Positions 1 to 62,136 of a stretch of DNA of 64,000 bases are shown here, one piece after another. The stretch is from Selaginella tamariscina (Eukaryota > Streptophyta > Lycopodiopsida > Selaginellales > Selaginellaceae), in contig PUQB01000326.1 in assembly GCA_003024785.1 (NCBI GenBank), forward strand, positions 1 through 64,000. Reading direction: 5' to 3'. Position 1 is the first letter of the stretch. Each line of letters opens with the position of its first letter. The translations under genes and the position numbers were made by a program. Under the pieces are notes generated by a model that did not search any database, had not been told where the DNA came from, and was given only the letters and a program-made list of their open reading frames with translations.

Positions 1-1310
1 AAACTCTGACAGAGGAGATGGAAGTCTTGGCTGATTTGGTGATTGATGGCAAATTACAGATTAACAACAGCAGCCCCACCTCTCAAGGCAATGGAGTTGA
101 AGACGGTTAGGCACTTCAAGGAGTGGTTGGGAATACACTGCCACAAACTGGGTTGGACCTCGGATTCAACATACGAAGAGGTCAGGAAATATTTGCATGT
201 GACAAATGATGATATGCTTGTCCAAATGGGTGAATCAATCGGTTGCACGCCAACGCCAAGAAGGAGAACATTGCGATGACACCTTCACTTATGGCGTCCC
301 TTCAGCAGCGAAGAATCGAGTTGAACCTTATAAAGGAGGATGCTACGAATCACGACCAGCCCTACAGATGTTTGTTGTTGGATTCAAAGACTTTATGGGT
401 ACCATCACTGCTTGTAGGAAACTGTTTTAATTATTCGTGATGAATCGGCGAGTGTCAAAAAATCCTTCGATAGACAGGACATTAGAGGATTTGGTGGAGA
501 AACTTAGCCATGCAAGCATGTACAAAGAAGGTATTTATTATTGAATTCATACTTGCACTCTTGATTGTATCTACGTTTTCAGATATTTATTTCTTGATTC
601 TTGCTCATGTCACCGATACCTTTGCATTCACCTTTGACAAGAGGAATAAACATCGTTGGACAGGATTTTATATGAATGATGCTGATTCGAAGTGCTTGGT
701 TGTTAGGAATGCGCCAAACAATTTCAAACTTCCAAATGACTGGACAGGCATCTGTTTGCACTTCAACGGCCCTGAACCTCCATCCGATACACCATAGCTG
801 AGAGTGACGTATTTGGCAATGTATGTTATCCAAACATTACAAGTCAAGCGGCACGGAGCATCGTCAACTTGATTAGGGGTCCTCACAGTGATGTGTGGGT
901 TTTTGACTACTGCACTAGGGGGTCCGTCTTGAAGGAGTGTTACCTTCAGGATACATGTGTGTTTGCCGTTGAAACGAATAAGACCGTGGTTAAGGACCTG
1001 AACAAGTGGATAAAGAGGTTCTCAACTGACTACCCCACAAACCCATACAGGAGTATTTGAGAAAGTTCCCTCCTGATAAGTGCGATAGTTCTAAAACGAA
1101 TCTGGTTCAATGTTTGAGTCTAAGGACAAACTTCAATCAGATATTAGACTGGAAGTTATCTCGAGGAGTACAGAATATTCACACACTCCATTACCCATGG
1201 AAACATCAACAGAAGATACGGAAGATCTCGAACCATCTCACAAGTGGCCTAGACCTTCTTCACCTCACTCAGAAGGTAATAGCAAAAAAGAATTGTTAAT
1301 GAGTTCTTAG
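1..1310 (+). pseudogene. ParB/methyltransferase-like gene of copy A, 3' part, broken
   Basis: The segment is collinear with 19530-20878 of the 14-kb copy and encodes the middle and C-terminal half of the same protein. Recognisable pieces are the block ending in a conserved IHCHKLGW stretch near 140, the segment HVTDTFAF near 608, and the C-terminal block with WVFDYCTRGSVLKECYL followed by VFAVE near 900-970. In bacterial beta-class DNA methyltransferases a comparable order (hydrophobic strand, Gly/Ser turn, then an acidic residue after the next strand) forms the AdoMet site; here the Gly-rich loop is degenerate. Several single-base indels shift the frame. The 5' half, with the ParB-like domain, is outside the window. 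Confidence 0.6.
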
Positions 1311-1418
1311 AGTGACAAATAATTGTAAATGAATGTAACATAAGGCATTTTTGTATATTTCGTTTATATTTGTACAGAAAATAAATTCTCAGGGATTAAT
1401 GAAGCTTTTAGTTCAAAC

Positions 1419-2728
1419 ATGAGTCACACATTAACAAGGTAAATAATATACCTTGATAATTTTAAGGTCAGCTAATTATCATTTTGCAAATGTAATGAAA
1501 TAGTTGAGAACATAGATTTTCAGCATTGCTATGAGGTAAGAGAGGGGTTTGGCAAAAATTTCTTGTGCCACATGTCAGAATGATAGAGTTCATGCAGGAA
1601 ATGAATAATAATGCAGCTCAAAACATCATTACCATGGGGACCACTTCAGTTTTTTCATCATCATTTCTATTGGCTTCAGTTCTGAAATTAATTTCTTCAG
1701 TGCATGCAATATCTGAATCTTGTAAGGATGATGTACAATTAAATGATAAAGGGATAGCAACGAGATAGTGTTAACAAATAAATGTGAAAGGGAGCAAATA
1801 AGTGATTTGCAAAGTATTCAAGAGGCAATGCTATCCCATGTTACTCATGGCCATATTGTGTTGTTGGATGTCAATGGTGTTCTGCTCCATCGACAAAGGC
1901 CCGAGGATAAGAAAAAAGAAATCAAACAAGGAGATTTCATTCCTTGTCATGGTAAATTTCAATATAATATTATTTTTCGTCCAGGGTTGGATCATCTCTT
2001 TCAAAAGCTTAAGGAGATGGGTGTGCTTGTGGGGATTTGGTCATGCATGCAGATTCACAACTTAACACCGCTATTGAATTTGCTTAAGAAACATTGTAGT
2101 GTTGCAGAAGAGGTGATTCATAAAGATTGAATTTTTGACCAACGAATATATTATAAACCTCTCGAATTTTACAATATAAAAAAAGAAAACAAGCCATACT
2201 TCTTCAAGAATGAAAGAATAATTGGACTCATGGGGAGATCAGTCGCTTAAGGATAATGAAGAACGCACAGATGTTAGTGGTAGACGACTCTCCTTAGAAG
2301 GCTATGCTCAACCAAAACATTGCTTGTATTCATCTAATCACTTTCGACCCATAATTCTGATATCGATATCATGAACGAGCTAGTGAACTACTTGGATACG
2401 TGCCTCAGAAAGAAGAATCTCAAAAACTTTTGTGAGCAGTATCCACTATATCAACATTTCCTAAAACTTTTCTTTCTCGTGATTTTGAATTTTATAAAAT
2501 GAAGAATAGTAACTGAGCGCTTTAATAATATTATTCTTAAGGAACATCAGTTTTTAGATGAGCCTTTATGCAGACCTTTTATCACATCTTATGCAATTGC
2601 ATTCGTGAGAGTGTTAGGTGGTGACAACAACATCAAGATATTGACCAAAATGATTTGATTAATCCGGAGAGTAATGATTTTAAACAAAATGAGAAGATTT
2701 CTCTGTATGATAGGAAGAAAATTTATAA
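1419..2728 (+). pseudogene. FCP1/NIF-type HAD phosphatase of copy A, broken
   Basis: The ATG at 1419 corresponds to the start deduced in the 14-kb copy at 20998. The core is well preserved: HIVLLDVNGVLLHR (HAD motif I, with Asn at the usual second Asp), RPGLDHLFQKLKEMG followed by VGIWSCMQ (motif II region), and LVVDDSPQKAML near 2276 (motif III/IV region). This arrangement is typical of the NLI-interacting-factor/FCP1 phosphatases. Unlike the 14-kb copy, frame is kept through PEDKKKEIKQGDF and through the DDSP motif. A stop replaces Trp after HKD near 2128, the acceptor AG before ATGTAATGAAAT is mutated to AA, and the C-terminal third has further indels. Confidence 0.65.
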
Positions 2729-3016
2729 AAAATTAACATGTTGATAAGAAAATGATTTCATTTGTATTTATGTTTGATACTATTTCTTAATTATTGTAAA
2801 TTATTTTTAAAATAATATGAATATTCTAAATATTTTAGGAATATTCCTTACTAAGTAAGGTTATTGAAGGATTAATTTATTAATTAATTAATATTTAAGG
2901 CTTAATTACATATTAATTAAATAATTAATTAATAATTTAAAACTTAAGTATTAATTAGTAATTTATTTTATATTCCTATTTTCACGTATCATGCCCACTT
3001 TAGTTACAACATGCAT

Positions 3017-8451: not shown

Positions 8452-8455
8452 ATAG

Positions 8456-8482
8456 ATGCAAGTTGTAACTAAAATGGGCATG
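8456..8482 (+). repeat. Left terminal inverted repeat of copy B
   Basis: It begins ATGCAAGTTGTAACTAAA and continues TGGGCATG. The right end at 22578-22604, reverse-complemented, differs at two of 27 positions. Right ends of other copies (2990-3016, 29993-30019, 30167-30193, 38075-38101) carry the same sequence including the outer ATGCAT-like hexamer, which argues that the hexamer belongs to the element rather than to the target. Confidence 0.85.
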
Positions 8483-8963
8483 GCTATAGTCCCATTTCCT
8501 TAATAATTAGCAATTTTAGCTATTTAATTAGCATTTTCTAATATTAAAGGAATATTCTTTAGAATATATGTTTGAAAATAGAATATTCTTTAGAATATTC
8601 TATTTTGTATTCTACCCTTTAATAAATTATAGCATTCATTGAACAAAAATTAATAACATTATAAAAGTAGAAGGTATTAAATTATATAATATATTGCCTA
8701 ATATAACAATTAAGGAAGAGCATAAGAGGTACATTATATAAATATTGATGTTGTTATTAAAATATTAATATTTAAATATAACATTATTAATTAAAAATTT
8801 GTAGTAGTAATAATATATATATAAAATCCTATAATAATATAGTCAATCTTCCATATCATTTTTTAAATTTATATAGTTAAGTATACAATTTGGTACTATT
8901 ATTAAAGAGTTTATAATAATTATGAATATTAAATATATGATATTTTATAATTTTGTAATTGCT
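8483..8963. other. Left subterminal AT-rich region of copy B
   Basis: The region is AT-rich with repeated GAATATTCTTTAGAATA-type inverted motifs near 8547-8605. No coding sequence is seen. It separates the left terminus from the stop codon of the transposase candidate. Confidence 0.5.
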
Positions 8964-11900
8964 TTAAGCTTCAGAAAACATACATTCCCTTGCAGTTTTG
9001 TTAATCGTGACTTTATCAACGCTTCTTGACATCCACCCATATCGAATGGATTTAACATTTATAAAACATGCTGGGTCTTTTTGATTGGGAGACCATGTTT
9101 TCTCTAGGCATCCATTATATCTTTCGCTCTCCTTCTCGTGTCGCCTTTTTTGTGGTTTGAACCATGCAACCTTAACAATACTATTTTTTGTGATTACTTC
9201 AGGTGTGTCGATAATTTGACCCATCCAAATAGGCTGATTATATGACGCATCTGGAGTAATGAGAACCATCATTAGTTTTTGAAGATCCTGGCAACAATCA
9301 AAGTATGCTTTAGGTTTTTGGTTCCTTTGTCCAACAAAGTGTGGGGTTTGCACTTCCACATCACTACTGGCTTCTATGTCGTCTATGCTCAGTGATGTCA
9401 TTTCAATCTCCTCTCGCCACCTTGTTTTAGGCCAGAAAGGGTGTTGCAATTCTGTACTTGTGACAGTAGGCCCTTCCAACTCTCGAACAACAGTCTCCCA
9501 ATAGTCGACCACATGCTTATATAGTTCTGAGTAACCAGTTGCCTTATCAGAATTCTTTGGCATCGATTTTTGAACCCATGCCACATATTTTTTGATGCCA
9601 TCAATAATAACCTCTTGTTCCTTGAGCTGGGCACTCAATGGAATAGGGTCTGGTTGTCCTTCTGGGAGAAGTGGCTTTCCATCCTCTCCACTTTTGAAGA
9701 GCATTAAGCCCTCTTTCGGTAACCACTCCTGCTCTGATGGCCGTAACTTGTACTGCATAATAGGTATACCATCTCGTATGGAGAAAAAGAATTGTAGCGG
9801 CACAAGGTGACCAACTAAAGAATCACTCCCTTCTTTTATATACTCCTTGAGAAATTTTTTGAAGTCTGGCACCTCAGTCACAAGCAAAGCACAACTTTTT
9901 TTGGAGATGCAATTTTCAAAAAGATTCATCATATGCGGTAAGTAAGTGCACTTGTCCTTTTTGTAGAGTTGGAGACCTTGCTGAAGAACGCATCAATATC
10001 TTCATGAGTGTGACCAACCATAAGGAAACTGAGCGTGATTGTTTCAAACACACCTTTGGCAACAAGCATTGACAAGTATGCTAGCACATATCTAGAAAAT
10101 AAAAGTAAGTATGAGCTTGAGAAACCCTTAAGTAAAATGATTTACCTATTTTTGTTCTCGCCTGCACAATTATCCATCTGTAAAAGCAAATGACGAGGAA
10201 GCTTATTTGATGTTGAGGACACATGTACACTATTTGAGCTAGATCCCTCCACTGAACCAGAACTCTCAACAGGGCCATCTGTTTTCTGTGCAGGCTGTTG
10301 ACAATGCCTCTCATATTCCCAAGTAGCCTCAAGTGCAGACGTGTTCATGAGAGCATTATGTAAAGGTTGAAGGTGTTGTTTCTTCACTTTGAGATCACTG
10401 ATAGGACTTGTCTGTGAGTGGGCTTCAAGGTTTCTGAAACACATGGCTAACGACCCAATAGTGAAATTGGAGTCGCTAGACCAATGTGGAAGTGAAAAGT
10501 GTCCATATGACTCACAACCGTGTCCATGTGTTAGCACACCTGTCAATGAAATCGGAAGTTTCATGACATTTCCAAGGCACTTTGGTGTTGCAAAGAGCTT
10601 TGGAATGCTGGTCTTTGAATGATCCATCTTGTCATGGATCAAGCACAGGTACTCTGATGGGCGTGACACAGAAAGCATGCGGTGTGCATAGTACTGAGAC
10701 CGGCAAGTTTGTTGTGCAATCATGTGGGCCTCCATCTTCTTTTGAATGGTAGTGATCTCCACCAAGGTTTTTGCACAAGCCTCTGCAGCCTTCAATGATG
10801 TACAAGTGTCACACTTGGAAAAGCTAGAGTGTTTTGCAATCTCCACATCCTTAAAATGAGTATTCCATATGTTGTTGAAGGTACCAGTGCAGATTGCTTG
10901 GAGCCCCATCAAACTGAGGCACTTGTTCACATGTTCACACAGCTTCAATTGAGTGTAGATTGAAGGCAAAACCTTGAGATTTTCCCTGACCCCTGCATTT
11001 GTGGTTCGGCATTTGTGAGGCATCCTGTCTGCATTTGCTTCCACAAAAGCCTTGAGTATCTCTATGGCTGCCATGATGTGAGAGCGGGTTTTGACCAAGC
11101 GAGTGTTCCCATGAACTGAGGTTCGCGCTCCATCTAGCCACTCATCCCTCCGACGGTAGAACGTGGTCTTTGGGATCCCGTATATACTGTACCAAGCTTT
11201 GAAGCAGATGGCCACCTTATTAAATACCATGGATGTACTCTGATAACCTGTGTCCGAGGCCATTCCATCAATACACCCAGTTAGTGCAGCATATACAAAC
11301 TCATGCCTTTGCTTTTGGGTGAGCATACGAAAGACATGTCTACATTGGGTAATTTCATTCCGGTCTGCCATCTGACAACACTTCTTCTTGCAACAGTCAA
11401 TCGTGGAAATGCTCGTAACACTTTCGGAAGATGTAGGATCCATCTTTACCCTCTTGCTGAAACTTGCAGGGGAAGATCTACAACCCATGAATCGCCTTTT
11501 TCTTACAATAGGACCAATGCAAGGAACCTCTTCAAATATGAGTTGTTCTTCCGGGTTGTTATTATTGAAATCCAACCCAGAATATGTTGAACCATCTTGC
11601 CGTCTTAATTCAGATGTTCGCCACCTCACGAGGGATCCAGGATACAATGTGCCATTAGGTGAAACCTCTGTCACAACTACACCCACGAAGTCGGACCCTA
11701 GTTTCTCTTCTGACACTGCTTCCATTGGATTTATAGCTGTGATGATGCCTCTTCCGACTTCAATCTCACGAAGAAAGAGAATCACCTCATCCATCACAGC
11801 AGGCAAGCCATCATCTGGTAAACTCGTGCTACTATTTGTTTGTGACTCTGCATATTCTGTGTCAGCCTTGACTTCATCCAAATTCCACAATACAGGAGAA

Positions 11901-12094
11901 CCCTCCTCAAATTCCATTCCCAGAACCTCAACATGCTTGTAAATGGTGTTCACCCATACGTACACACAAGATCCTTGGGCAATATTGTGACATGATGCAT
12001 TATTATCTCGAACTTCCACAGTTCCAGTGCCAACTATCTCGTTGTTCCGAAGAAGACATACTTTATCTCCAGTATTAAACATATTGTCCTGCAC
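8964..12094 (-). pseudogene. Transposase candidate, DUF7869-like, with one intron and one frameshift
   Basis: The first large block (10146-12094, about 650 codons) has an N-terminal stretch with VEVRDNNASCHNIAQG, a helix-turn-helix-like YGIPKTTFYRRRDEW near the middle, a paired-cysteine motif FSKCDTCTSLK, then YLCLIHDKMDHSK and LLLQMDNCAGENKNR. A 54-bp GT-AG intron at 10092-10145 joins it to YVLAYLSML..LMVGHTHEDIDAFF. One frameshift near 9980 then leads into CTYLPHMMNLFENC and an open 320-codon tail. This order matches eukaryotic proteins with the DUF7869 domain. Asp in IHDKMD, Asp in QMDNCAGEN and Glu/Asp in HTHEDID could form a DDE/D triad; that is inference. The marked 5' end is a GTG next to TTATGTGCAG, a likely splice acceptor, so an upstream exon or the ATG four codons later is more plausible. 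Confidence 0.65.
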
Positions 12095-12106
12095 ATAAAT
12101 AATTGT

Positions 12107-12236
12107 ATTATTTATGATATCTGTTTATGCAATATTTCTAAGAAATCTGAATTACGGTTACTTAATAATATGCATATGCAATAATACATAATTATGTTTA
12201 GAGATAATATCTCATGTTTGATTAATACAACTGATG
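12107..12236. promoter_or_regulatory. Possible 5' region of the transposase candidate
   Basis: This short AT-rich stretch lies between the 5' end of the minus-strand transposase candidate and palindrome array 1. TTATGTGCAG next to the open frame suggests that an intron ends here. A TATA-like run is present but cannot be singled out in such AT-rich DNA. Confidence 0.3.
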
Positions 12237-12706
12237 GGCGGGATTAATCCCGCCCACGAATCCCTCCGACGAGGAACGGTCGGCGGGATTAATCCCGCCG
12301 CCGACTCAACCCCTTCGGAGAGAGTCGGCGGGATTAATCCCGCCCACAATTCTTACGACGGGGAATGGGTGGCGGGATTAAACCCGCACATAACTCTCTC
12401 CAAAACTATGATTTCAAAGAGATCTCGGGATAAATCCTGTCCCCAAATCCTTAAAACAGGGATGTGGTGGCGAGATTAATCCCGCCACCCCTTCCCTGCC
12501 TCCTAAAATGGTTGGCGGGATTAATCCCGCCGACAACTCTTTCTAATAAATTCTGGTAACTCTTCATCAGTTGAGAAGGTTATCGGCGGGATTAATCCCG
12601 CCACTCTTTTTCAGTGGCGGAGAAGCATTGCCCGAGAGATGGTGGCGGGATTAATCCCGCCACCTCTTCGAAGAGGCGAAAAAGAAATGGCCGGATTAAT
12701 CCCGCC
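12237..12706. repeat. Palindrome array 1 (about ten units)
   Basis: The unit is the 18-bp perfect palindrome GGCGGGATTAATCCCGCC. Exact copies start at 12237, 12282, 12327, 12514, 12585 and 12644; degenerate ones lie at about 12371, 12469 and 12689. The first units are 45 bp apart. Spacers are unrelated short sequences of mixed composition. The GC-rich arms contrast sharply with the AT-rich surroundings. The array sits about 140 bp upstream of the outward-facing transposase candidate. Because the motif is palindromic, both strands read GGINPA or GLIPP-like peptides, so the open frames here are artefacts. Confidence 0.9.
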
Positions 12707-13349
12707 GCCCGGTTAACCTAGAATATTAAGTTAAAAGGATATTTAAACGGGATAAATCCCTAACGGAATATATTATAATCCTAATGCATTCCTAAACCCC
12801 TAAATTGTAATTTTAAGAGAGAATGTAAGAGAGTGAATCTTTATAAGTATTTTTAAATTTGTTTATAATACTTACTTGTAAACAGCACTGAAGGCGCCGT
12901 GCTTTCCTATAAAGAATAGCACCCAATTTAATCTCGCTCCTGAGATGATCACTATGAAGAAAAAAGAAGATCTAAAGAGTGAAAAATACAGAAATGAAGA
13001 AACCCTTGCCGGAGAAAGAACCAGATCTGAATTTGAGTGGGAAATTAAATGCATTTTCAAATTTACATGTCAGACCGACAATACATATGTCAGAAATTCA
13101 AATTTTTTAAAAAGAACAGAAAATAAAATTTAAGATGAGTTGACACAAATATCCGACACTCTGACATATATACTCTCCAGTTCCAATGAGTATTTTAAAA
13201 TTGCATTTAATGTTATTCAAGTGATTCAAGCTGTTTAATATTACGAAATTTTAGACTATATTCTACATTCTTAGTATTCAAGTATATTTATATTATATAT
13301 ATATATAAATATATACTTATACAATAAATAAATTGATATATTATTATGT
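12707..13349. other. AT-rich central region of copy B, left part
   Basis: No gene is supported. Two short facing open frames at about 12872-13133 lack motifs and overlap one another. A (TA)n stretch lies near 13294-13316. Confidence 0.4.
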
Positions 13350-14060
13350 ATCATTTAAAATATATTCATAGTCTGTTTATTATTATTATTTTTTAATTAC
13401 TCGAGTATTTAGTTTTCATTTCCTAGTATCAATGGGATATTCTTTATTATTTTATTAATATTTGAAGAATATTCTAATATTAAACCTGATTATCATAATT
13501 AAATTAGTCTTGTTCTTAATTATTGCAGTAATTATTCTACATTTGTATATATTAATGGGATTTTCTCAATTAATTTGTTATTATTTCAAGAATATTCCTG
13601 TGTTAAACCTTATTATCAATATTAAATTAATATTATTAAAACTATATATGACTATATATTAGATAAAATGATGTATTATTATGTATAATTTAAAATATGT
13701 TCATAGTGTGTATATTAATATCATTTCCTTAATTACTTGAGTAATTAATCTTCTTTATATTAATGGGATATTCTTTATTATTTTCTTATTATTCCAAGAA
13801 TATTCCAATATTAAACATGATTATGATAATTAATTTAGTTAATTATTTGAGTACTTAATTTACATTTGTATATATTAATGGGATTTTCTCAATTAATTTC
13901 TTATTATTTCAAGAATATTTCAATGTTAAACCTTTTTATCAATATTAAATTAATATATATTATTAAAACTATATATGGCTATATATTAGATAAAATCATA
14001 TATTATTATGTATAATTTAAAATATGTTCATAGTGTGTTTATTAATATTATTTTCTTAAT
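13350..14060. repeat. Tandem repeat of about 310 bp, just over two units
   Basis: Phrases such as ATAATTTAAAATATGTTCATA, AATGGGATATTCTTTATTATT and ATTAATGGGATTTTCTCAATT recur in the same order at about 13350-13680 and 13680-13990, with the start of a third unit to 14060. Copy D begins at 30194 within the same unit. The AT content is very high and there is no coding capacity. Confidence 0.7.
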
Positions 14061-14289
14061 TATTCGATGTTTGTTTTGCACACATATATAAACACAATCA
14101 TAAATTTACACACACATTACAAGAACTTACAAAAACACATATGCACACACATGCACAACCCTAAACCAAATGAAGAAATATGTTGCTTCTTTATTGAAAA
14201 CATCATGTTCAACGCATGTATGATATATGTACTCAATCTGTGTGTATGTAACACATTGAATTTACATGTGTAATATTTATATTAAGCTT

Positions 14290-15070
14290 GTTGGGAGCAA
14301 ACCCTAAACCCTGTGTATACATGTGTGTACAAAAATAATTTTTCAACACTCTCATGCATGATCCATCCTAAACCCTAAACCCTAAACCCTAATATGTAAC
14401 ACAATGAATTTACTCATGTAATATGTATGTATGTCTGTGTGTATACACGTGTGTATGTATATATGTGTACTCTGTATATATATGTGTACTTTCTGTCTTC
14501 TCTCATACATACACACCATGCATGATCCATGTTAATATGTACTGTCTCTCTTCTCAAACATACACACCATGCATGATCTATAATATGTACTCGGTCTCTT
14601 TAATATTATGTACTAATATGTATGTATGTCTGTGTGTATAATACACACCATGCATGATCCATAATATGTACTGTACAAAAATAATTTTTCAACACTCTCT
14701 CTTCTCTCATACATACACACCATGCATGATCCATCCTAAATCCAAAACCCTAAACCCTAAACCCTAAACCCATGTAATATGTATGTATGTCTGTGTGTAT
14801 ACACGTGTGTATGTTTTCTCATACATACACACCATGCATGATCCATCCTAAATCCAAACCTAAACCCTAAACCCTAAACCCATGTAATATGTATGTATGT
14901 CTGTGTGTATACACGTGTGTATGTATATATTATGTGTATTAATATATGCAATGTGTATGTATGTATTGATACACATAAAACTTTAACACTCTCATGGATA
15001 CACACATGTTAAATCCCTGCATGATTTATATTTTTGGGGTGTATGTGATACACCCACGCACACGCACGCG
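14290..15070. repeat. Telomere-type CCCTAAA motifs and CATGCATGATCC minisatellite
   Basis: Runs of three to four CCCTAAA units occur at about 14370-14391, 14746-14770 and 14862-14881. They are interleaved with a recurring phrase containing CATACACACCATGCATGATCC. CCCTAAA is the plant telomere repeat. The short internal runs make these interstitial rather than a chromosome end. The frames here are low complexity. Confidence 0.7.
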
Positions 15071-15227
15071 CTAATAATATAATGAAAGAATATTCGTTTA
15101 GGGCGAATCTATATTTTATTCTTTTTAGGGTTTAAGTATATTCTCAGAAGGAATATTCTATAGGGTTATATATATATTTAATTCCTTTAGGGTTTAGGTA
15201 TATTCTTAGGGTTTCAAGAGGCGGCGG

Positions 15228-16158
15228 CTGTGAAATCGGCGGCGGCGGCTGTGCACACAAGTGAGATCTCTATGTGTGTGTGTGTGTGTATGTATGTATA
15301 TATGTATAGGAGTGTGCGTATAATTTTATTTATTGATCTATCTCTCGCACACACACGCACACTCCTGTGTATATATATGTGTGTGTGGGTGTGTGTTTGT
15401 TTATCTGTATGATTTTTATTTGTTTCGCTCACACACCATACACACGATATACATATACACTATATATATATACCTATATACATATATACATACATATATT
15501 ATGTGTACCAGTATCTATATAATTTTTATTATTGATCTATCTCTCCCACACACACGCACACTGCTTTACATATATATATATTGCTTATATATTCACAGAC
15601 TCTCTCTCTTTCTCTATGGGCTATATATCTATATACACACATATATGTGTGTGTGTGTGTTTGTTTATCTGTATGATTTTATTTGTTTCGCTCACACACG
15701 CATACACACAATATCATATACACATATATATATACCTATATACATATATACATACATATATTATGTGTACCAGTATCTATATAATTTTTTATTGATCTAT
15801 CTCTCCCACACACACGCACACTGCTTTACACACACACACACACACACACCACACACACACCACACACACACACAACACAACACACACACACACAACACAC
15901 ATATATATATATATATATATTGCTTATATATTCACAGACTCTCTCTCTTTCTCTATGGGTTATATATCTATATACACACATATATATGTGTGTGTGTGTG
16001 TTTGTTTATCTGTATGATTTTATTTGTTTCGCTCACACGCATACACACGATATACATATACACATATATATACCTATGTACACACATATATTATGTGTAC
16101 CAGTACTGTATAATTTTATTTATTTATCTATCTCTTGCACACACACGTACACTCCTAT

Positions 16159-16189
<31 letters not shown>

Positions 16190-16275
16190 ATATATTATAT
16201 ATATATATATAATACACACACATATATATGTGTGTGTTTTTATCTGTATAATTTTTTTATTTATTAATTTTATCT
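15228..16275. repeat. CA/TA microsatellite block of copy B
   Basis: The block holds long (CA)n/(TG)n, (TA)n and CATA-type runs, preceded by a GGCGGCGGC-rich bit at 15220-15252. A 220-240 bp phrase around TATCTGTATGATTTTATTTGTTTC is repeated about three times (15400-15560, 15650-15800, 16005-16110). Open frames of up to 285 codons here are only Tyr/Ile/His/Thr low-complexity translations and are not genes. Confidence 0.85.
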
Positions 16276-16301
16276 CTCGCACACATGCTAAGCCCTCGAG
16301 C

Positions 16302-17862
16302 GGCGGGATTAATCCCGCCGCTATAGGTTTATGGCCTTGGCAGCGGGATTAATCCCGCCGCTATATGGTTGGGGCCATAGCGGCGGGATTAATCCCGCCG
16401 CCCATGGCCTGCGTGAGGGGCCTCGGCGGCAGAATTAATCCCGCCGCTCACCCATGCCCTGCGCGGAATGCGGCGGGATTTATCTCGCCAGCAATGGCCT
16501 GTGTGAAGGCCTAATGGGCGGGATTAATCCTGACGGATTCCGCGCAGGGCATTTACAGGGGATGGGCGGTGGGATTAATCCGCCGCTCATGAGGCTAACC
16601 GAAGAGCCTGCATGAAAGATCCTGCACGGAAGGCTAACCGAAGAGCTTGCATGACATGTCCTAACGCGTAAGGCGGCGGGATTAATCCCGCCGCCCAGGG
16701 AATTCACGCAGGACATGAACGGCGGGATTAATCCCGCCCCACGCTCATGCCCTTCGCGGAGGGCGGCGGGATTAATCCCGCCGCTCAGGCACTTCCGTAG
16801 GATATAAGCGGCGGGATTAATCCCGCCCACGCTCATGCCCTTCACGGAGGGCGGCGGGATTAATCCCGCCGCTCAGACACTTCCGCAGGATATAAGCGGC
16901 GGGATTAATCCCGCCCCACCCATCCCTGTTCAAAATGCCGTAGCCAATATATATGTGTGAGCACATGATTTACGAGAGGGCGGCGGGATTAATCTCTCCG
17001 AACCTTCATTGCCCGGTGGCGGGATTAATCCCGCCACCTTTTTTTTTTCCTCCATTGGTATGTTGAATCAATCCCGACTAACTCTGTCTGAGACGAAGAA
17101 GGTTTACAAAATACAATGGAGGGAACTAAGAAGGGTGGTGGGATTAATTTCATCATCCCTTACATGGTGAGCGGGATTAATCCTGCTGCGTACGCATGCC
17201 CTGCGCGGAATCGGGCGAGATTTATCCCGCCGCCATTGGCCTGCCTGAAGGGCCTAGGCGGCGGGATTAATCCCGCAAAATTTCGCACAGGGCATTGGTG
17301 TTCAGCGGGATTAATCCCGCCGACTAAGGCCCGAGTGAAGGGCCTGGGAGGCGGGATTAATCCCGCGTACACATGCCCTGCGCGGAATCGGGCGGGATTT
17401 ATCCGCCGCCATTGGCCTGCCTGAAGTGCTTAGGCAGCGGGAATTAATCCCGCCCGATTCCGCACAGGGAATTGGCGTCCGGCGGGATTAATCCCGCCGA
17501 GTCTTCAATGCATGTTGGGGAATGAATCCGCCACCCTTCGCTTTTTTCTCCATTGGTGAGTCGGACCAATCCTAAACGTTTCTGTCTGAGACATAGAAGG
17601 TTTAACAACATACCAATGGAGAGAATTGGGAAGGGTGGGGAAATTCATTTAATCATCCCTTACATGGTGGGCGAGATTAATCCCGCCTCCTTTCTGGAGT
17701 CACTGAAGGGGTGTGAGAAATAAATCCTGCCCAGTTTCTCTGAGACCGAGAAGGGTGGCAAGATTAATTCCGCACTTTGTTCAAGGCCTCCAGAAAGGTG
17801 GCGAGATTAATCCCGCCCACTCTTTCAGGAGGCATTGAAGGGGTGGCGAGATTAATCCCGCC
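16302..17862. repeat. Palindrome array 2 (30-odd units)
   Basis: The unit is GGCGGGATTAATCCCGCC again. Exact copies start at 16302, 16382, 16675, 16721, 16765, 16810, 16853, 16898, 17018 and 17481; many more have one to three changes. In the best part (16675-16915) unit starts are 43-46 bp apart. Spacers carry semi-conserved phrases such as ATGCCCTGCGCGGAAT. Common variants read GGCGAG for GGCGGG, a change expected from deamination of a methylated CCG on the other strand. The array ends about 230 bp before the first exon-like sequence of the plus-strand ParB/methyltransferase-like gene. Confidence 0.9.
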
Positions 17863-18089
17863 GCACCTTCCATGTAAATATATATGTGTATTAGTATATA
17901 TAAGTTGCATATCTCATTTTATTTCTTTTATCATCTTATCATAATATTTCGAGTAAAAGTTAGGAATCTATGTAAACTGTCCAGAGCTCACATTTGTGGT
18001 GGTTCTAAAACGAAATGTTATCTTTCTTTTTGCACTAGCACAAATGTGAGCTTCGGACAGTTAATTACGTCTACTTCTCTCTGTGTATT

Positions 18090-20878
18090 ATTTTTGTATA
18101 GATATGCCTTGTTCCATCCAATGTCACGTTCTCGGATCCAGAGGTCGTCAGTTACAACATTAATTTCGGGTGGTTTTGTCGACTTGTGGATAATGACGTT
18201 CACGTGTTCACTAATGATGTTGACCTTGGAGTTCTTCTTCAACTCAACGAAAGCCCATCTATGGAGGGGATCCATCTGGATGTCTACTTCGAAGATCTTC
18301 AGACTCATCGAGTAGGTGTATTGTCAGGAGATATTGCTTCACAATACAGAAAATCAGCAAGTGGAGCAATCTTCCCTCTTCACATTGAAGAAGAACACAG
18401 CGACATCATAAGGGAGATTGAGAGGGTGGCTCGGTCTCAGGTTCTCTACAGATCACGTTCAATTTGCTTAGGAAGCTTCGGGAGCTGGAAGAGTGTGCCG
18501 AGAACACTAGAACAGCTGCAGTCGGGGATCACACATGTTGATTCGGATCGCAAAAGAAAATCATCAATCGTTTTGTCAGCTGCACCTGTGGCATCTCATG
18601 CTGCAATAAGTCACAAGGAAATGATGTTGGATGATAAGATTTATCCTTGTAGGGTTAAATATTGCAGCGTCAACCCAAACTTCAATTACAGGCCACTCAA
18701 CCAGGAACGTGTAGCTGAGCTCATGGAGAAGATGAAGGACGACAATTCTTATACCGTTCCACATAATGCTGTTTTGTGTCCATACTATGAAAGAAGGAAG
18801 GGCGCTGACAAAGTCTGGATCACAACACCAGAACAACTCATGAAGATTCAGACGGAGAATAAAAATCTATCAAGTACTACATCATTAGTGGCCAGCACAC
18901 AATAACGGCAGCCCAACGACTTCTCGATGAACACAACAAAGGAACGATGGCAACAAAACTTTCCGAGCATACCCGTGAGAAGCTGACAAAAAGATCGGCG
19001 TTTTTAGCTAAGCCGAATCTCACAATCGAGCAGTACCATAAGTTATCGGCGGAATGGGACGCTGCCGACACCAACCACTACAACAGCAAAATATGGGAGA
19101 AGTTTAAACACACGCGAGCCGTGTGGGAATCTCTTCAGCGACCACAAAGAGCTACCGCAGGGAATACACAATCTGCGGAATACCGGGTAAGCAAATTGTT
19201 TGGGCGGGATTTATCTCGCCGGTATATTAATCTGTCTTTTTCCTCAGAGAGTTGAAGAAATTGCAGCAGTTGATTTTGCCCAGGTGGGCGGGAAGGAAAC
19301 ATCCTTTCTGATGATGTTGATTTCTTGCCCCGAAGATAGGATCTTTGCCAAATGGTTGGGGATTATGGAATCCTTTTCAAAAGGAACACTGAAGAAGAAG
19401 CAGACAAGTGAAGGGGAGCCCTCAGAAAAGTCTGCAAAGAAACCCAGTAAGACGCCGAAGGCTAAGTCTGTTCAATCTACAAAGGATGTAGACAACGATT
19501 TCAAGCTCACATGGTTGAAGCCTTTAAATGGAACAACGATGGAGGAGATGGAAGTCTTGGCTGATTTGGTGATCGATGGCAAACTACAAATTAATAACAG
19601 CAGCCCAACCTCTCCTTTTCATCTCAAGGCAATGGAGTTGAAGACGGTCAGGCATTTCAAGGAGTGGTTGGGAATACACTGCCACAAACTGGGTTGGACC
19701 TCGACTTCAACATATGAAGAGGTCAGCAAATATTTGCATGTGACGAACGATGATATGCTTGTCGAATGGGTGAACCAATCGGAAGATCTAGGCAAGAATC
19801 TATTGCACGCCAACGCCAAAAAGGAGAACATTGGGATGACGCCTTCTCTTATGGCAGTCCTTCAGCAGCGGAGAACCGAATTGAACCTTATAAAGGAGGA
19901 TGCTACGAATCACGACAAGCCCTACAGATGTTTGTTGTTAGATTCGGAGACTTTATGGGGTAACATCACTGCTTGTAGGAAACCGTTTCAATTGTTCGTG
20001 ATGGATCGGCGGGTGTCAAAAAATCTTTCGACAGATAGGGCACTAGAGGATCTGGTGGAGAAACTTAGCCGTGCAAGCATATACATAGAAGGTATTTATT
20101 ATTGAATTCATGCTTGCGCTCTTCACTGATACCTACTTTTTCAGGTATTTATTTCTTGATTCTTGCTCATGTCACCGATACTTTTGCCTTCGCCTTCGCC
20201 AAGAAGAATAGACATCGTTGGACAGGATTTTATATGAACGATGCTAATCCCAAGTGCATTGATACGTTGTTCACTTGGTTGTTAGGAATGCGCCAAACAA
20301 TTTCAAGCTTCCAAATGACTGGCCAGGCATCTGTTTGCACTCCAACGGCCCTGAACCTCCATCCGATACACCGATAGGTGAGTGACGTATTCGGCAATGT
20401 ACGTTATCCAAACATTACAAGTCAAGCGGCACGGAGCATCGTCAACTTGATCAGGGGTCCTCACAGTGATGCGTGGGTTTTTGACTACTGCACTAGGGGG
20501 TCCGTCTTGAAGGAGTGTTACCTTCGGCATACATGTGTGTTTGCCGTTGAAAAGGATAAGACCATGGTTGAGGACCTGAACAAGTGGATAGATTGGGTCT
20601 CAACTGAGTACCCCAACGAATCCATAAAGGCGTATTTGAGAAAGTTCCCTCCAGATAAGTGCGATAGCTCTGAAGGTGAATCTGGTTCAATCTCGGAGTC
20701 TGAGAACGAACTTCAATCAGATATTAGACCGGAAGTTATCTCGAGGAGTACAGAACATTCGCACACTCCAGGACCCATGGAAACATCAATAGAAGATGCA
20801 GAAGATCTTGAACCATCTCACAAGCGGCTTAGACCTTCTTCGCCTCACTCAGAAGGTAATAGCGAAGAAGAATTGTAA
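18090..20878 (+). pseudogene. ParB-like domain plus methyltransferase-like domain, copy B, broken
   Basis: Plus-strand frames give, in order, a segment around NDVHVFTNDVDLGVLLQLNE; a ParB-type block (FNYRPLNQERVAELMEKMK, then after a one-base frameshift at about 18868 YYIISGQHTITAAQRLLDEH); a Lys-rich linker; and a C-terminal part with HVTDTFAFAF, RNAPNNFKLPNDW and AWVFDYCTRGSVLKECYL followed by VFAVEKD. The last block resembles motif I and the following acidic residue of beta-class DNA methyltransferases, with the Gly loop altered. Introns read as 19187-19247 and 20092-20144. Frameshifts also lie near 20275 and 20380. About 430 bp holding the N-terminal exon, present in copy D, are deleted just before 18110. 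ParB-like is my firmer call; methyltransferase is tentative. Confidence 0.55.
19203..19220. promoter_or_regulatory. Palindrome-like site inside an intron of the ParB-like gene
   Basis: GGCGGGATTTATCTCGCC differs from the array palindrome at two positions and lies within the 61-bp intron 19187-19247. In copy D the same intron position, near 34747, keeps only a decayed GAGATTTATCTCGCC remnant. Confidence 0.6.
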
Positions 20879-20997
20879 TGAATTGATAGAGTGATGAATA
20901 GTTGTAAATGAGTGTAACATAAGGCATTTTTGTATATTTCTTTTATATTTGTACAGAAAATAAATTCTCAAGGATTAATGAAGCTTTTAGTTCAAAC

Positions 20998-22316
20998 ATG
21001 GGTCACACATTAACAAGGTAAATAATATACCTTGATAATTTTAAGGTCAGCTAATTATCATTTTGCAGATGTAATGAAATAATTGAGAACATGGATTTTC
21101 AGCATTGGCATGAGGTAAGAGAGGGGTTTGGCGACAATTTCTTGTGCCACATGTCAGAATGACAGAGTTCATGCAGGAAATGGATAATAATGCAGCTCAA
21201 AACATCGTTACCATGGGGGCCACTTCATTTTTATTGGCTTCAGTTCCGAAATCAATTTCTTCAGCGCATGCAATATCTGAATCTTGTAAGGATGATGTAC
21301 AATTAAATGATGAAGGGATAGGCAACGAGATAGTGGCAACGGATAAATGTGAAAGGGAGCAAACAAGTGATTTGCAAAGTATTCAAGAGGCAACGCTATC
21401 TCATGTTACTCATGGCCATATTGTGTTGTTGGATGTCAATGGTGTTCTGCTTCATCGACAAAGGCCCGAGGATAGAAAAAAGAAATCAAACAAGGAGATT
21501 TCATTCCTTGTCATGGTAAATTTCGATATGATATTATTTTTCGTCCAGGGTTGGATCGTCTCTTTCAAAAGCTTAAGGAGATGGGTGCGCTTGTGGGGAT
21601 TTGGTCATGCATGCAGATTCATAACTTAACACCGCTGTTGAATTTACTTAAGAAACATTGTAGTGTTGCAGAAGAGGTGATTCGTAAAGATTGGATTTTT
21701 GACCAGCGAATATGTTATAAACCTCTCGAATTTCACAATATAAGAAAGGAAAGCAAGCCATACTTCTTCAAGAATGAAAGAATAATTGGGACTCATGGGG
21801 AGATCAGTCGCTTAAGGATAATGAAGAACGCACAGATTAGTAGTAGACGACTCTCCTCAGAAGGCTATGCTCAACCAAAACATTGCTTGTATTCATCCAA
21901 TCACTTTCGATCCATATTCTGATACCGATATCATGGATGAGCTAGTGAACTACTTGGATACGTGCCTCAGAAAGAAGAATCTCGAAAATTTTTGTGAGCA
22001 GTATCCACCGTATCATACATTTCCTGAAGCTTTTCTTTCTCGTGATATTGAATTTTATAAAATGAAGGATAGCAACCGGGCGCTTTATAATATTATTCTT
22101 AAGGAACGTCAGTTTTTAGATGAGCCTTTATGCAGACCTTCTCTTATCACATCTTATGTATTAACAAGGATGGCAACTCCCAATTGCATTCGTGAGAGTG
22201 TTAAGTGGTGGCAACAACATCAAGATATTGACCAAAATGATTTGATTAATCCGGAGAGTGATGATTTAGACAAAATGAAAAGATTTCTTTGTATGATAGA
22301 AAGAAAGTATTTATAA
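20998..22316 (+). pseudogene. FCP1/NIF-type HAD phosphatase, copy B, two frameshifts
   Basis: The gene starts 120 bp after the ParB/methyltransferase-like gene. Exons read 20998-21017, 21069-21114 and 21177-22316; introns of 51 and 62 bp have GT-AG ends and join in frame. The protein would be about 400 residues. Near residue 105 is HIVLLDVNGVLLHR (HAD motif I, Asp-X-Asn instead of Asp-X-Asp), then RPGLDRLFQKLKEMG and VGIWSCMQIHN, and later VVDDSPQKAMLNQN with ITFDPYSDTD..DELVNYLDTCL, as in the NLI-interacting-factor phosphatases that dephosphorylate Ser in RNA polymerase II CTD or other targets. One base is missing near 21478 and one near 21838. The Asn at the acid/base position makes catalysis uncertain even before the frameshifts. 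Confidence 0.65.
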
Positions 22317-22577
22317 AAAATTAACATGTTGATAAGAAAATGATTTCATTTGTAATTATGTTTGATAGTATTTCTTCATTATTGTAAACTATTTTTAGAA
22401 TAATATGAATATTCTAAGATATTTTAGGAATATTCCTTACTAAGTAAGGTTATTGAAGGATTAATTAATTAATTAATTAATATTTAAGGCTTAATTACAT
22501 ATTAATTAAATGATTAATTAATAATTAAAACTTAAGTATTAATTAGTAATTTATTTTATATTCCCATTTTCACGTAT
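22317..22577. other. Right subterminal AT-rich region of copy B
   Basis: TTAATTAATTAATTAATAT-type runs fill the stretch between the phosphatase stop and the right terminus. The same tail follows the phosphatase gene in copies A, C and D and helps to anchor their right ends. GGAATATTCCTTACTAAGTAAGG at about 22428 is a near-palindrome. Confidence 0.6.
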
Positions 22578-22604
22578 CATGCCCACTTTAGTTACAACGT
22601 GCAT
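22578..22604 (-). repeat. Right terminal inverted repeat of copy B
   Basis: This is the inverted match of 8456-8482, containing TTTAGTTACAAC and ending GTGCAT. ATAG follows at 22605-22608 and matches ATAG at 8452-8455. Confidence 0.85.
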
Positions 22605-23010
22605 ATAGGAGGGAGGAGAAGAAGCATGACCAGGAAGAGAGAAGGATGATATGGCTCCAACAAAGAGGTGTGAAACACAAGATGAAGTTTCACCGTAGAT
22701 GGTAACTCGAGTCGGAAAGCTATAGGATTGACCTTAGCCACAATCCTGTAAGGGCCCAATCATTGAAAATCCAACTTAAAAGAAGGCATGTTGGTGCGAA
22801 TATGCCGACAAAGAAGCCACACGAGATCACCAATCTTGTATGCAGGTGCCGGTTGACGATGAGCATCAGCATGACGCTTGTACCGTTCCTGTGCCTGCTG
22901 AAGATGAACCCAGAGATCCTCATGTACCTGACAAGATGTTGGAGATGATCATGTACTGCAAGAGCGGAAGAAAGAGAAGTAGGAGGAGCAAAGTCAAACG
23001 TGGATGGTAG
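22605..23010 (-). pseudogene. Gypsy integrase, C-terminal part before the nested insertion
   Basis: Minus-strand frames give YKIGDLVWLL, LDFQWLGPYRIVAKV and VKLHLVFHTSLLEPYHPS, the conserved region between integrase core and chromodomain. It carries at least one frameshift. The next residues of the same protein lie at 8451 downward, on the other side of the 14-kb element. Confidence 0.75.
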
Positions 23011-29142: not shown

Positions 29143-30019
29143 GAAGCAAGCCATACTTCTTTAAGAATTAAAGATTTATTGGGTTTCATGAGGATTTATT
29201 GGGCTTCATGAGGAGATCAATCAGTTAAGGATAATGAAGAACACACATATCTTAGTGGTAGACGACTCTCCTCAGAAGGCTATGCTCAACCAAAACATTG
29301 CTTGTATCTATTCAATCACTTTTGACCCATATTCTGATACCAATACCATGGATGAGCTAGTGAACTACTTGGATACGTGCCTTATAAAGAAGAATCTCAA
29401 AAAACTTTTGTGAACAATATCCACCATATCAAACATTTCCTGATGTTTTTCTTTCTCGTGATTTGAATTTTATAAAAATGAAGGAGAGCAACCGGGCGCT
29501 TACAATATTATTCTTAAAAAAACGTCATTTTTTAAATAAGTTTTTATGTAGACTTGGTCTTATCACAGCTTATGTATTAACAAGGATGGCAACTCCTAAC
29601 TGTAATTCGTGAAAGTGTTAGGTGGTGTCAACAACATAAAATTTGACCAAAATGATTTAATTAATCCGGAGAGTGATGACTTAAATAAAATGAGGAGATT
29701 TCTCTGTAGTTAAGGAGAAAGTATTTATAAATACATTAACATGTTGATAAAGAAATGATTTCATTTGTGTAATTATGTTTGATAATATTTTTAATTATTG
29801 TAAATTATTTTTACAATGAAGAATAATATGAATATCTAAAATATTTTAAGAATATTCCTTACTAGTAAGGTTATTGAGGATTAATTTGTTAATTAATTAA
29901 TATTTAAGGCTTAATTATATAATAATTAAATAATTAATTAATAATTAAACTTAAGTATTAATTAACAATTTATTTTATATTCCCATTTTTATCATGCCCA
30001 TTTTAGTTACAACATGCTT
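29143..30019 (+). mobile_element. Copy C of the TIR element (right end, phosphatase 3' part)
   Basis: It starts abruptly at AAGCAAGCCATACTTC, matching the middle of the phosphatase gene, and runs through DDSPQKAMLNQN and the AT-rich tail to the terminal repeat at 29993-30019. Frameshifts are numerous. The bases after the end (GTATAGGCATTAAGCAATTTC) resemble those after copy D (38102 on), so copy C and its flank look like a duplicated piece of copy D's right junction. Confidence 0.75.
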
Positions 30020-33308: not shown

Positions 33309-36300
33309 ATTGTGCAGAAAGACGGTTTGATCAAACAAAGAGATTTAGCATTAGTATGGAGTCGTCATCAAATTTTGGATAAGAATTAAAATAAAATTTA
33401 TTATACTCGGATATGTGCTTAAGAACTAATCATTTTTGTATTCAGATGTGGAATTGAGGTGACATTGAAGACAAGAGGAGGTGATGAGATGGGCAAGGGG
33501 ATTTTAGAATCAACTTGGCCATATTTCAAAATAAATGGGAAGCACATTGGAGCAACTATGGTTGTTATCAAACTAACCTCTGTCACATCGCATGGACAAG
33601 CAAAACAATGGAAATTAGATTTACTAGTTAAGCACCCGAAAGTAGGCTACGAACCCAGATTGGACAATGCTCGACACGTATGCCTTGTTCTATCCAATGT
33701 CACATTTTTGGATCCAGAGGTCGCCAGTTACGACAAGAATCTCGGGTGGTTTTATCGACTTGTAGATAATGACGTTCACGTTTTCATTAATGATGTTGAT
33801 CGTGGAGTTCTTCTTTAACTCAATGAAAGCCTATATATGGAGGGGATCCAATTAATGTCTACTTTGAAGATCTCTATACTCATCGAGTAGGTGTATTCTC
33901 AGCAAATTGCTTCACAATACAGAACATCCATAAGTAGAGCAATCGTCCCTCTTCTTATCAAGAGAAGAACACAGCACATCATTAGGAAGATTAAGAGGGT
34001 GGCTCGGTCCCAGTTCTTACAGATCACGTTCAATTTGTTTAGGAATCTTCGGGAGCTGGAAGAGTACATTAGAACAAATGTAGTCGGGGATCACACATGT
34101 TGATTCGGATCGCAAAAGAAAATCATTTGTCGTTTTGTCAGCTGCACCTGTGGCATCCCATGCTGCAATAAGCACAAGGAAATGATGTTGGATGATAGGA
34201 TTTATGAGTGTAGGGTTAAGTATTGCAGCGTCAACCCAAACTTCAATTACAGGCCACTCAACCAGGAACGTGTAGCTAGCTCATGGAGAAGATGAAGGAC
34301 ACAATTCTTACACCGTTCCACATAATGTTGTTTTGTGCCCATACTATAAAAAAAGAAAGGCACTGAGAAAGTGTGGTGATAACACCAGAACAAATCATGA
34401 AGATTCAGACGAGAAGAAAAAATCAATCAAGTACTACATTATTAGTGGCCAACACACATAACGGCAACCCAACGACTTCTCTTAATGAACACAATAAAGG
34501 AACGATGGCAACAAAACTTTTCGAGCATACCCATGAAAGCTACAAAAAGATCGGCGTTTTTAGCTAAGCCAAACAACGAGCAGTACCATAAGTTATCGGC
34601 GGAATGGGACGTGCCAACACCAACCACTACAACAGCAAAATATGGGAGAAGTTTAAACACACACGATCCATGTGGGAAATCTTGCGACCACAAAGAGCTA
34701 CTATAGGGAAGAACAATGTGCGGACTACCGGGTAAATAAATTGTCTTGGGAGATTTATCTCGCCAGTATATTAATCTGTCTCTTTTTTTTCAGAGAGTTG
34801 AAGAAATTGCAGCAGTTGATTTTGCCCAGGAGGAAACATCCTTTTTGATGATGTTGATTTCTTGCCCCGAGGATAGATCTTTGCCAAATGGTTGGGGATT
34901 ATGGAATCCTTTGCAAAAGGAACACTGAAGAAGAAGCAGACAAGTGAAGGGGAGCCCTCAGAAGAAGTCTGCAAAGAAACCCAGTAAGACGCCGAAGGCT
35001 AAGTCTGTTCATTTACTACAAAGGATGTAGACAACGATTTCAAGCTCACATGGTTGAAGCCTTTAAATGGAACAACGATGGAGGAGATGGAAGTCTTGGC
35101 TGATTTGGTGATTATGGCAAACTACAGATTAACAACAGCAGCCCCACCTCTCCTTTTCATGTCAAGGCAATGGAGTTGAAGACGGTCAGGCACTTCAAGG
35201 AGTGGTTGGGAATACACTGCACAAACTGGGTTGGACCTCGGCTTCAACATACGAAGAGGTCAGCAAATATTTGCATGTGACAAACGATGATATGCTTGTC
35301 CAATGGGTGAACCAATCGAAGATCTGGGCAAGAATCTATTGCACGCCAACGCCAAAAAGGAAACATTGGATGACGCCTTCTCTTATGGCAGTCCTTCAGC
35401 AGTGGAGAACCGAGTTGAACCTTATAAAGGAGGATGCTACGAATCACGACAAGCCCTATAGATGTTTTTGTCGGATTTGGAGACTTTATGGGGTAACATC
35501 ACTGCTTGTAGAAACCGTTTCAATTGTTCGTGATGGATCGGCGGGTTCAAAAAATCCTTCGACAGATAGGGCACTAAGGATTTGGTGGAGAAACTTAGCT
35601 GCAAGCATGTATAGAGAAGGTATTTATTATTGAATTCATGCTTGCACTCTTCACTGATACCTACTTTTTAGGTATTTATTTCTTGATTTTGCTCATGTCA
35701 CCGATACTTTTGCCTTCACCTTCGCCAAGAAGAATAGACATCGTTGGAAATTTTATATGAACGATGCTTAATCCCAAGTGCATTGATACGGTTGTTCACT
35801 TGGTTGTTAGGAATGCACCAAACAATTTCAAACTTCCAAATGATGGCAGGCATCTGTTTGCACTCCAACGGCCTGAACCTCCATCCGATACATCGATAGC
35901 TGAGAGGGACGTATTCGGCAATGTACGTTATCCAAAATTACAAGTCAGGCACACGGAGCATCGTCAACTTGATCAGGGTCCTCACAGTGATGCATGGGTT
36001 TTTGACTACTGCACTAGGGGGTCCGTCTTGAAGGAGTGTTACCTTCGGGATACATGTGTGTTTGCCGTTGAAAAGGATAAGACCATGGTTGAGGACTTGA
36101 ACAAGTGGATAGAGAGGTTCTCAACTGACTACCCCAACAAACCCATAGGAGTATTTGGGAAAGTTCCCTCCCAAGAAGTGTGATAGCTCTGAAGAGGAAT
36201 CTAGTTCAATGTCGAGTCTAGGATTATCTTCAATCAGATATTAGACTGGAAGTTATCTTAAGGAGTACAGAACATTCACATACTCCATTGACCATGGAAA

Positions 36301-36398
36301 CATCAACAGAAGATATGGAAGATGTTGAATGATCTACCAAGCAGCTAAAACCTTCTTCACCTCACTCAGAAGGTAATAGCAAGAAGAAGATTTGTTAA
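33309..36398 (+). pseudogene. ParB/methyltransferase-like gene, copy D, with N-terminal exon
   Basis: Copy D keeps an upstream block lost from copy B. After TTTTGTATTCAG, a likely acceptor near 33445, the frame reads EVTLKTRGGDEMGKGI..NGKHIGATMVVIKLTSVT..KVGYEPRLDNARH and then joins the NDVHVFINDVD segment. A further possible exon reads KDGLIKQRDLALVWSRHQIL at 33317-33376. The ParB-type block (RPLNQERVAS..., IISGQHT) and the C-terminal block (WVFDYCTRGSVLKECYL, VFAVEKD) follow. Here the frame is kept at IDTVVHLVVRNAP, where copy B lost a base. Many other indels make it non-functional. Confidence 0.55.
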
Positions 36399-36497
36399 TA
36401 ATAGTTAGAGTGACGAATAGTTATAAATGAGTGTAACATAAGGCATTTTTGTATATTTCGTTTATATTTGTACATAAAATTAGCTTTTAGTTCAAAT

Positions 36498-37846: not shown

Positions 37847-38101
37847 ATAGATTAACATGTTGATAAGGAAATGATTTTATTTGTAATTATGTTTGATAAT
37901 ATTTTTAATTATTGTAAACTATTTTTACAATGAAGAATAATATGAATATTCTAAGATATTTTAGGAATATTCCTTACTAAGTAAGGTTATTGAAGAATTA
38001 ATATTTAATTATTATATAATAATTAAATAATTAATTAATAATTAAACTTAAGTATTAATTAATAATTTATTTTATATGCCCATTTTAGTTACAACATGCA
38101 T

Positions 38102-38580
38102 GTATGGGCATTGAGCAGTTTCAAAGCACTTGTTACAACAAAAGCCAAACTTAATGGTCCAGTAGTGAAGACACCATCTAGAAATATTCCAGAGTACTTA
38201 ATCACATATGGAGGTTATGATCTTTGGGTTGGCATGTTGACACCATTCCCACATCGTGATGAGTTCGAAGATGATGAATATGCATTATATAATTACATGC
38301 ATTCATCAACAAGGATCGCAGTTGAGAGAGCATTCGGGCAGTTGAAGATGCAATGGAGGTATCTAACCAAGAAAATATATCATGGAGACCCTCAATAGCG
38401 TGCAGTGTTGTGCTATCTTGCACAACGTTATATTGGACATGTCAGAGAGGTTTGTAGAAGAATGGTCTAGAGAAGATCATGATCCAAGCTACGAGACAAT
38501 ACGAGCACCAGGGCGATGTCTATCTGGAGGAGCATTCAGAGATGTTATTATGAATCATGTTCTTAGCCTACATGTTTAGT
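38102..38580 (+). pseudogene. PIF/Harbinger DDE transposase, C-terminal part
   Basis: The frame contains YGGYDLWVGMLTPF, then YALYNYMHSSTRIAVERAFGQLKMQWRYL, the conserved C-terminal signature with the catalytic Glu of the DDE_Tnp_4/HARBI1 family. After a short break comes CCAILHNVILDMSERF, also typical. The N-terminal two-thirds are cut off by the right end of copy D. The Myb/SANT-like partner gene of the same element lies downstream on the opposite strand. Confidence 0.85.
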
Positions 38581-62134: not shown

Positions 62135-62136
62135 TA

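Follow-up and report, generated by a model that had tools for sequence, protein, structure and literature searches.

The first 64,000 nucleotides of contig PUQB01000326.1 from Selaginella tamariscina (assembly GCA_003024785.1), referred to here as the window, contain at positions 8456–22604 an element that an earlier note, made from the sequence alone, had described as a large transposon. We interpret it as one copy of a giant, recently multiplied family of Sola-like cut-and-paste DNA transposons in which the product of the second gene (gene 2) would bind the element's own palindromes and so regulate or protect the element, and we place the probability of this interpretation at about 0.6. The element has inverted ends that pair with each other in the genomic places examined, a 4-bp target duplication with a corresponding empty site, three recurring genes, and palindrome arrays beside both of its gene units.

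Ends, target duplication and copies

The window copy is bounded by 27-bp terminal inverted repeats at 8456–8482 (plus strand, beginning ATGCAAG) and 22578–22604 (minus strand). As the earlier note had reported, the two match, with 2 mismatches between them; beyond 27 bp they diverge on reading. Six end-like sites with at most three mismatches are present in the window, whereas 100 shuffled versions gave 0.00 on average. The genome-wide search proposed in that note, carried out with the 26-bp end pattern TGCANGTTGTAACTAAARTGGGCATG, gave 2,675 exact occurrences (1,361 + 1,314) in the 300.7-Mb genome and none for the reversed pattern used as a control. A chance origin of the ends is ruled out by the window shuffles and by this control. 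Forty near-full matches to the left 245 bp, of 1,510 candidates, were scored and are 99–100% identical to it, so at least part of the family has spread recently.

Pairing of the ends was judged among the 100 end places listed out of the 2,675. These include 27 adjacent convergent pairs, 17 of which are spaced by 9–17 kb, and 16 of these 17 combine an A-type end with a C/T-type end; the same spacing is found for four of 19 divergent neighbouring ends. The ends thus pair elsewhere in the genome too, and if the 100 listed places are typical we estimate that there are several hundred copies with both ends. A third end type, in which T replaces A or C (TGCATG...), accounts for 20 of the 100 listed places (for example L041, L046, L049, L053, L054 and L056). 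The convergent pairs read for this type included spans of 6.7 to 28.8 kb, which may represent shorter derivatives and nested insertions.

In the window the flanks read ATAG on both sides (8452–8455 and 22605–22608), in agreement with the duplication claimed earlier. We read the flanks of 21 end pairs, comprising 11 pairs with the window included and ten further pairs, among them those of 6.7 to 28.8 kb. The 4-bp flanks are identical in 11 of the 21, the matching duplications being ATAG, TAGA, AAGA, CGTT, CTAT and TGGT in the first set and ATGT, ATTA, ATAA, TATC and TTTT in the second. The window insertion lies within a repeat, and at each of the 40 places scored the match to the joined flanks runs through the junction. 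All six empty sites fetched read ...GACCACAG... with a single ACAG at the target, where the window carries ATAG twice. Small insertions lie just past the join in these sites, which accounts for the 13–16 mismatches obtained in an ungapped comparison of 45 bases. The empty site also shows the outermost A and T to be part of the element, which therefore begins ATG.

Ten further copies, selected for paired ends and with lengths of 13.9–15.0 kb, were compared with the window copy. Identity is 96.5–99.2% in the left gene unit and 95.2–99.2% in the right, and is lower in the core and arrays, the most variable part of the element. All 11 full-length copies compared carry markers of the three genes. 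The element had been described as a cargo-bearing family with its own gene set; the set does recur, but the left unit, whose gene the note had missed, most likely encodes a transposase and is not only cargo. The window copy lacks 417–420 bp at 18100–18102 (plus strand) that are present in all ten other copies and that, in copy C46, hold exon 1 and the beginning of exon 2 of gene 2. Genes 1, 2 and 3 of the window copy contain frame breaks, and among the 11 copies the positions of such breaks differ from copy to copy, a pattern that fits either homopolymer assembly errors or young decay.

Genes, palindrome arrays and related pieces

As previously noted, the window copy has a low-complexity core with a gene unit facing outward on each side. 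The left unit consists of gene 1, on the minus strand. Exon 1 (10146–12082, within an open reading frame at 10142–12094) encodes an N-terminal part with CCxxxCC, HDKMD and LLLQMDN motifs; it is followed by a putative 54-bp GT...AG intron (10092–10145), a stretch absent from homologous proteins, and by exon 2 (8964–10091, limits from splice signals, frame break near 9941–9962), which encodes the C-terminal part of this DUF7869 protein, with VGHTHEDID. The match to DUF7869 (PF25273) scores 47.7 bits against a gathering score of 26. Of the acidic motifs HDKMD, LQMDN and VGHTHEDID, two have invariant aspartates, and the third, within GHTHEDID, offers E or D. A structural model, weak at a mean predicted local distance difference test score (pLDDT) of 55.9 (53.5 and a weak core in an earlier model), predicts an RNase-H-like strand order; in transposases with this fold, acidic residues stand at the first strand, the fourth strand and the helix that comes next. 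From this order and the acidic motifs we read gene 1 as most likely the transposase, a reading that is supported, not proven. Its named relatives are two only, both from a fern. In one homologue, P0001, residues 19–70 weakly match TNP1/EN/SPM Transposase_23 (0.00066, 19.9 bits, cut-off 21). A later N-terminal segment of the gene 1 family, used in a three-sequence search, gave a weak match on gene 2 (12.9 bits), hinting that the two proteins share a small domain; the remaining N- and C-terminal segments gave nothing on gene 2.

Gene 2 lies on the plus strand in the right unit. In copy C46 it has four exons and about 876 open residues to DLNKWI, where a frame break follows. The window copy retains the remaining part of exon 2 (18102–19186, frame break near 18863) with the ParB-like motif region, a putative intron 2 (19187–19247) that includes one palindrome site (19203–19220), a predicted exon 3 (19248–20091) and exon 4 (20145–20878, frame broken), which carries the methyltransferase-like motif FDYCTRGS. 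The ParB-like reading comes from RLNQERVAELMEKMKDD ... NAVLC ... YYIISGQHTITAAQRLL and from the motif RLNQERVAELMEKM ... YYIISGQHTITAAQRL, recognized by eye, and the methyltransferase-like reading from FDYCTRGSVLKECYL ... FAVEKD at the level of motifs. A DPPY-type catalytic motif is typical of N4/N6 DNA methyltransferases. A scan of the 11 copies detected none within gene 2; judged from the neighbouring letters, the five DPPY-like strings that it did pick up, in four copies, belong to the palindrome array that precedes the gene. The ParB/methyltransferase label given to gene 2 in the earlier note comes from motifs and is weaker than that note implied. We regard the label as plausible but unproven, and a published gene from Ectocarpus, described below, adds to its plausibility. 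Of the 93 genomic matches to a 456-residue exon piece that were scored, 84 have no stop, a fraction biased upwards since these matches are the best of 6,570 candidates. An inverted repeat with 22-base arms (2 mismatches by eye) lies just before the gene at 17977–18060, and copy C46 has it as well.

Gene 3 (21144–22316, plus strand, its frame broken in the window copy between 21461 and 21838) encodes an NIF-type HAD phosphatase, as the earlier identification of a HAD phosphatase had it. The C-terminal piece from copy C46 matches the Pfam NIF profile (PF03031) at 3.2e-9 and 37.1 bits, above the gathering score of 21.8, and many genomic copies score about 45.8 bits, whereas other NIF loci in the genome reach 166.9 bits. 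Twenty of these other loci were sampled, and the element protein matches none of them significantly; a PDB sequence search with the HAD piece returned matches at chance level only. One uninterrupted copy has 359 residues from its first listed start. Stop-free frames, many of 403–406 codons, were found in 86 of 113 scored genomic matches, again an upwardly biased fraction, from the best of 6,908 candidates.

Two arrays of an 18-bp palindrome flank the core. Array A (12237–12706), upstream of gene 1, contains nine sites within four mismatches of GGCGGGATTAATCCCGCC, and array B (16302–17862), upstream of gene 2, contains 27. In the window copy both lie inside the element, 3.8 and 4.7 kb away from its ends and adjacent to the starts of genes 1 and 2. 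Each of the 11 copies has 12–28 exact and 35–48 near sites (at most four mismatches) of GGCGGGATTAATCCCGCC, compared with none in one shuffle per copy, which supports these as repeated candidate binding sites. The commonest sequence among 450 sites is the perfect palindrome (231 sites); since sites were chosen by similarity, conservation within the 18 bp is partly by choice, and the bases flanking the 18 carry little information. The spacing is 44, 45 or 46 bp in 219 of 400 tabulated cases. The core itself (12707–16301) is composed of AT-rich repeats, TG/TA microsatellites and CCCTAAA runs. The last, which correspond to the plant-type telomere repeat, lie at 14373–14878 in the window, and (CCCTAAA)2 or longer is present in nine of the 11 copies.

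Elsewhere in the window there are four extra right-end matches, all on the minus strand and ending at 3016, 30019, 30193 and 38101; the only left end is that of the element itself. Pieces of the right-hand genes are found at 3–2727, 29145–29707 and 33459–37836. They belong to three plus-strand relatives: gene 3 with the end of gene 2 (3–3016, right end 2990–3016), a gene 3 fragment (29145–30019, right end 29993–30019), and an older unit of genes 2 and 3 with many stops (33459–38101, right end 38075–38101). The earlier count of three related copies in 64 kb is thus fair, but they are right-hand pieces for which no partner end was found in the window. An open reading frame at 38096–38398, starting within the last of these right ends, resembles, as judged by eye, a fragment of a PIF/Harbinger transposase. 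Inverted repeats at 59709–62659, with arms of 184, 149, 72 and 63 bp that are 81–91% complementary and about 2.0–2.8 kb apart, are perhaps a separate fold-back or terminal-inverted-repeat element.

Placement among known transposons

The earlier note could not assign the element to a named superfamily. We narrow it to Sola-like, short of proof, because of its 4-bp duplication, acidic motifs, giant size and a gene pairing like that of Sola1-1 from Ectocarpus. Sola elements are described as having a DDD transposase, 4-bp duplications and, in known cases, sizes above 15 kb, and as being present in a moss (PMC10741241). The 4-bp duplication is seen here in 11 of 21 pairs, with a single ACAG in all six empty sites, and the acidic motifs of the probable transposase and the large size are alike by description (PMC10741241). 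Among fern genomes, SOLA elements are reported to be substantially more numerous in Azolla than in Salvinia (PMC6786969).

Sola1-1_Ec32 is a 21.5-kb Sola-1 transposon of Ectocarpus with a second gene, on the strand opposite to the transposase, for a ParB-like and DNA-methyltransferase protein of 1104 residues, which has been read as an N4-cytosine/N6-adenine enzyme (PMC12477816). The same account places such transposon genes in brown, green and red algae and suggests that they may encode self-modifying accessory proteins. Compared by description, the Selaginella element is likewise a giant DNA transposon with a ParB-like/methyltransferase-like gene opposite the probable transposase gene (PMC12477816). 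It differs in its plant host, in the additional NIF-type HAD phosphatase, in the palindrome arrays that flank the core, and in a methyltransferase-like part without the canonical motif; the accessible text on Sola1-1_Ec32 mentions neither arrays nor phosphatase (PMC12477816). In the literature searched we found no description of a phosphatase, palindromic arrays or a plant host for an element of this type.

VANDAL elements belong to the Mutator superfamily, and no ParB-like or phosphatase gene is known from VANDAL21. En/Spm (CACTA), also large and from plants, encodes two proteins, TNPA and TNPD: a transposase and another that binds DNA. In VANDAL21 of Arabidopsis the targets of the anti-silencing protein VANC are described as arrays, varying in number, that precede the transposase gene and also occur within introns (PMC5735166). 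The Selaginella element similarly has a second protein of its own, an array that precedes the probable transposase gene and a site within an intron, and its arrays vary among copies, but its palindrome has 18 bp, whereas the VANC motif has nine bases (PMC5735166). The likeness to En/Spm lies in the weak TNP1-like segment of P0001. CACTA/En-Spm was rejected because it needs CACTA/CACTG ends and a 3-bp duplication, in contrast to ATGCA and 4 bp here; Mutator/VANDAL, because it needs a duplication of 7–12 bp; and Ginger, because it needs 5'-TG...CA-3' termini and terminal inverted repeats of 40–270 bp, unlike the ATG start and 27 bp found here (all PMC10741241). Bacterial or phage DNA integrated in the nucleus was also rejected, since genes 1 and 2 are predicted to have introns and the named gene 1 relatives come from a fern. 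A phage search with the ParB-like part and a plasmid search with the gene 1 homologue gave no match.

Possible role of gene 2 and alternative explanations

We suggest that gene 2 encodes a DNA-binding protein whose targets would be the 18-bp palindromes, placed about four helical turns apart. Bound there, it would control transcription of both outward-facing units, and occupancy of the palindromes may shield these units from host silencing, as VANC does on the VANDAL motif arrays. Catalysis by the methyltransferase-like part has probably been lost or is different, since the usual motif is missing. The NIF-type phosphatase could act on RNA polymerase II or a chromatin partner and so favour transcription of the element; this is the weakest step of the proposal.

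Several points weigh against this interpretation. The flanking 4 bp differ in ten of the 21 end pairs. The structural model of gene 1 is weak, as given above; a Foldseek search with it returned no match at E ≤ 0.001 (a Hermes transposase chain ranked 7 with E 3.3), all structure comparisons gave Z < 8, a level that a common arrangement can produce, and the top-ranked row (Z 7.2) pairs unrelated helices in a different region of the model. Gene 2 gave no significant match in Pfam, PHROGs, NCBIfam, PDB sequence, phage tblastn or 5.8 billion proteins. The ratio of nonsynonymous to synonymous substitution rates (dN/dS) in eight copies could reveal no selection on it, the copies being too young and dominated by compensated frame breaks. 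The open-frame fractions of genes 2 and 3 carry the bias already noted.

A tentative alternative, to which we assign appreciable but clearly smaller weight, is that the arrays serve the transposition complex as transposase-binding or structural sites and that gene 2 is a mere accessory with no anti-silencing role. The subterminal repeats of En/Spm serve TNPA in this way, and this explanation is favoured by the retention of the arrays in all 11 copies and by the weak matches of P0001 to Transposase_23 and of the gene 1-family segment to gene 2; the position of the window arrays, internal and at gene starts rather than subterminal, argues against it. That the element captured genes 2 and 3 together with the arrays, as passengers with no part in its life, appears unlikely. 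Further NIF genes do exist in the genome and no selection is demonstrable on gene 2, but most of the scored matches to either gene have an open frame, the three genes travel together in all copies compared, genes 2 and 3 recur in the window relatives, the element HAD protein stands apart from the sampled NIF loci, and a similar second gene is reported in the Ectocarpus Sola1 transposon (PMC12477816). Least probable, in our view, is an active DNA methyltransferase encoded by gene 2 that would mark the element's arrays: the resemblance of FDYCTRGSVLKE ... FAVEKD and the published assignment of the Ectocarpus product (PMC12477816) speak for it, and the missing DPPY-like motif and profile match speak against it.

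A more speculative extension of the idea that gene 2 binds the palindromes, which we consider improbable, is self-recognition. The ParB-like protein would load at its own palindromes, spread as a clamp and either exclude silencing or hold copies together, with the methyltransferase domain serving as a DNA reader. The palindromes resemble bacterial parS sites, but there are about 40 in each element copy. If this were correct, a parS/ParB-like and possibly nucleotide-switched coat would operate in a plant nucleus.

We regard the element as a variant of an already reported kind, for which Sola1-1_Ec32 with its ParB-like/methyltransferase gene is the nearest precedent. The analysis suggests a transposase function for the uncharacterized Pfam domain DUF7869. 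For the algal genes, the accessible part of the published account names no target (PMC12477816). In this plant family, with its 2,675 exact ends, a ParB-like/methyltransferase-like gene stands beside a clear repeated candidate target, so that the idea of self-modifying accessory proteins becomes directly testable.

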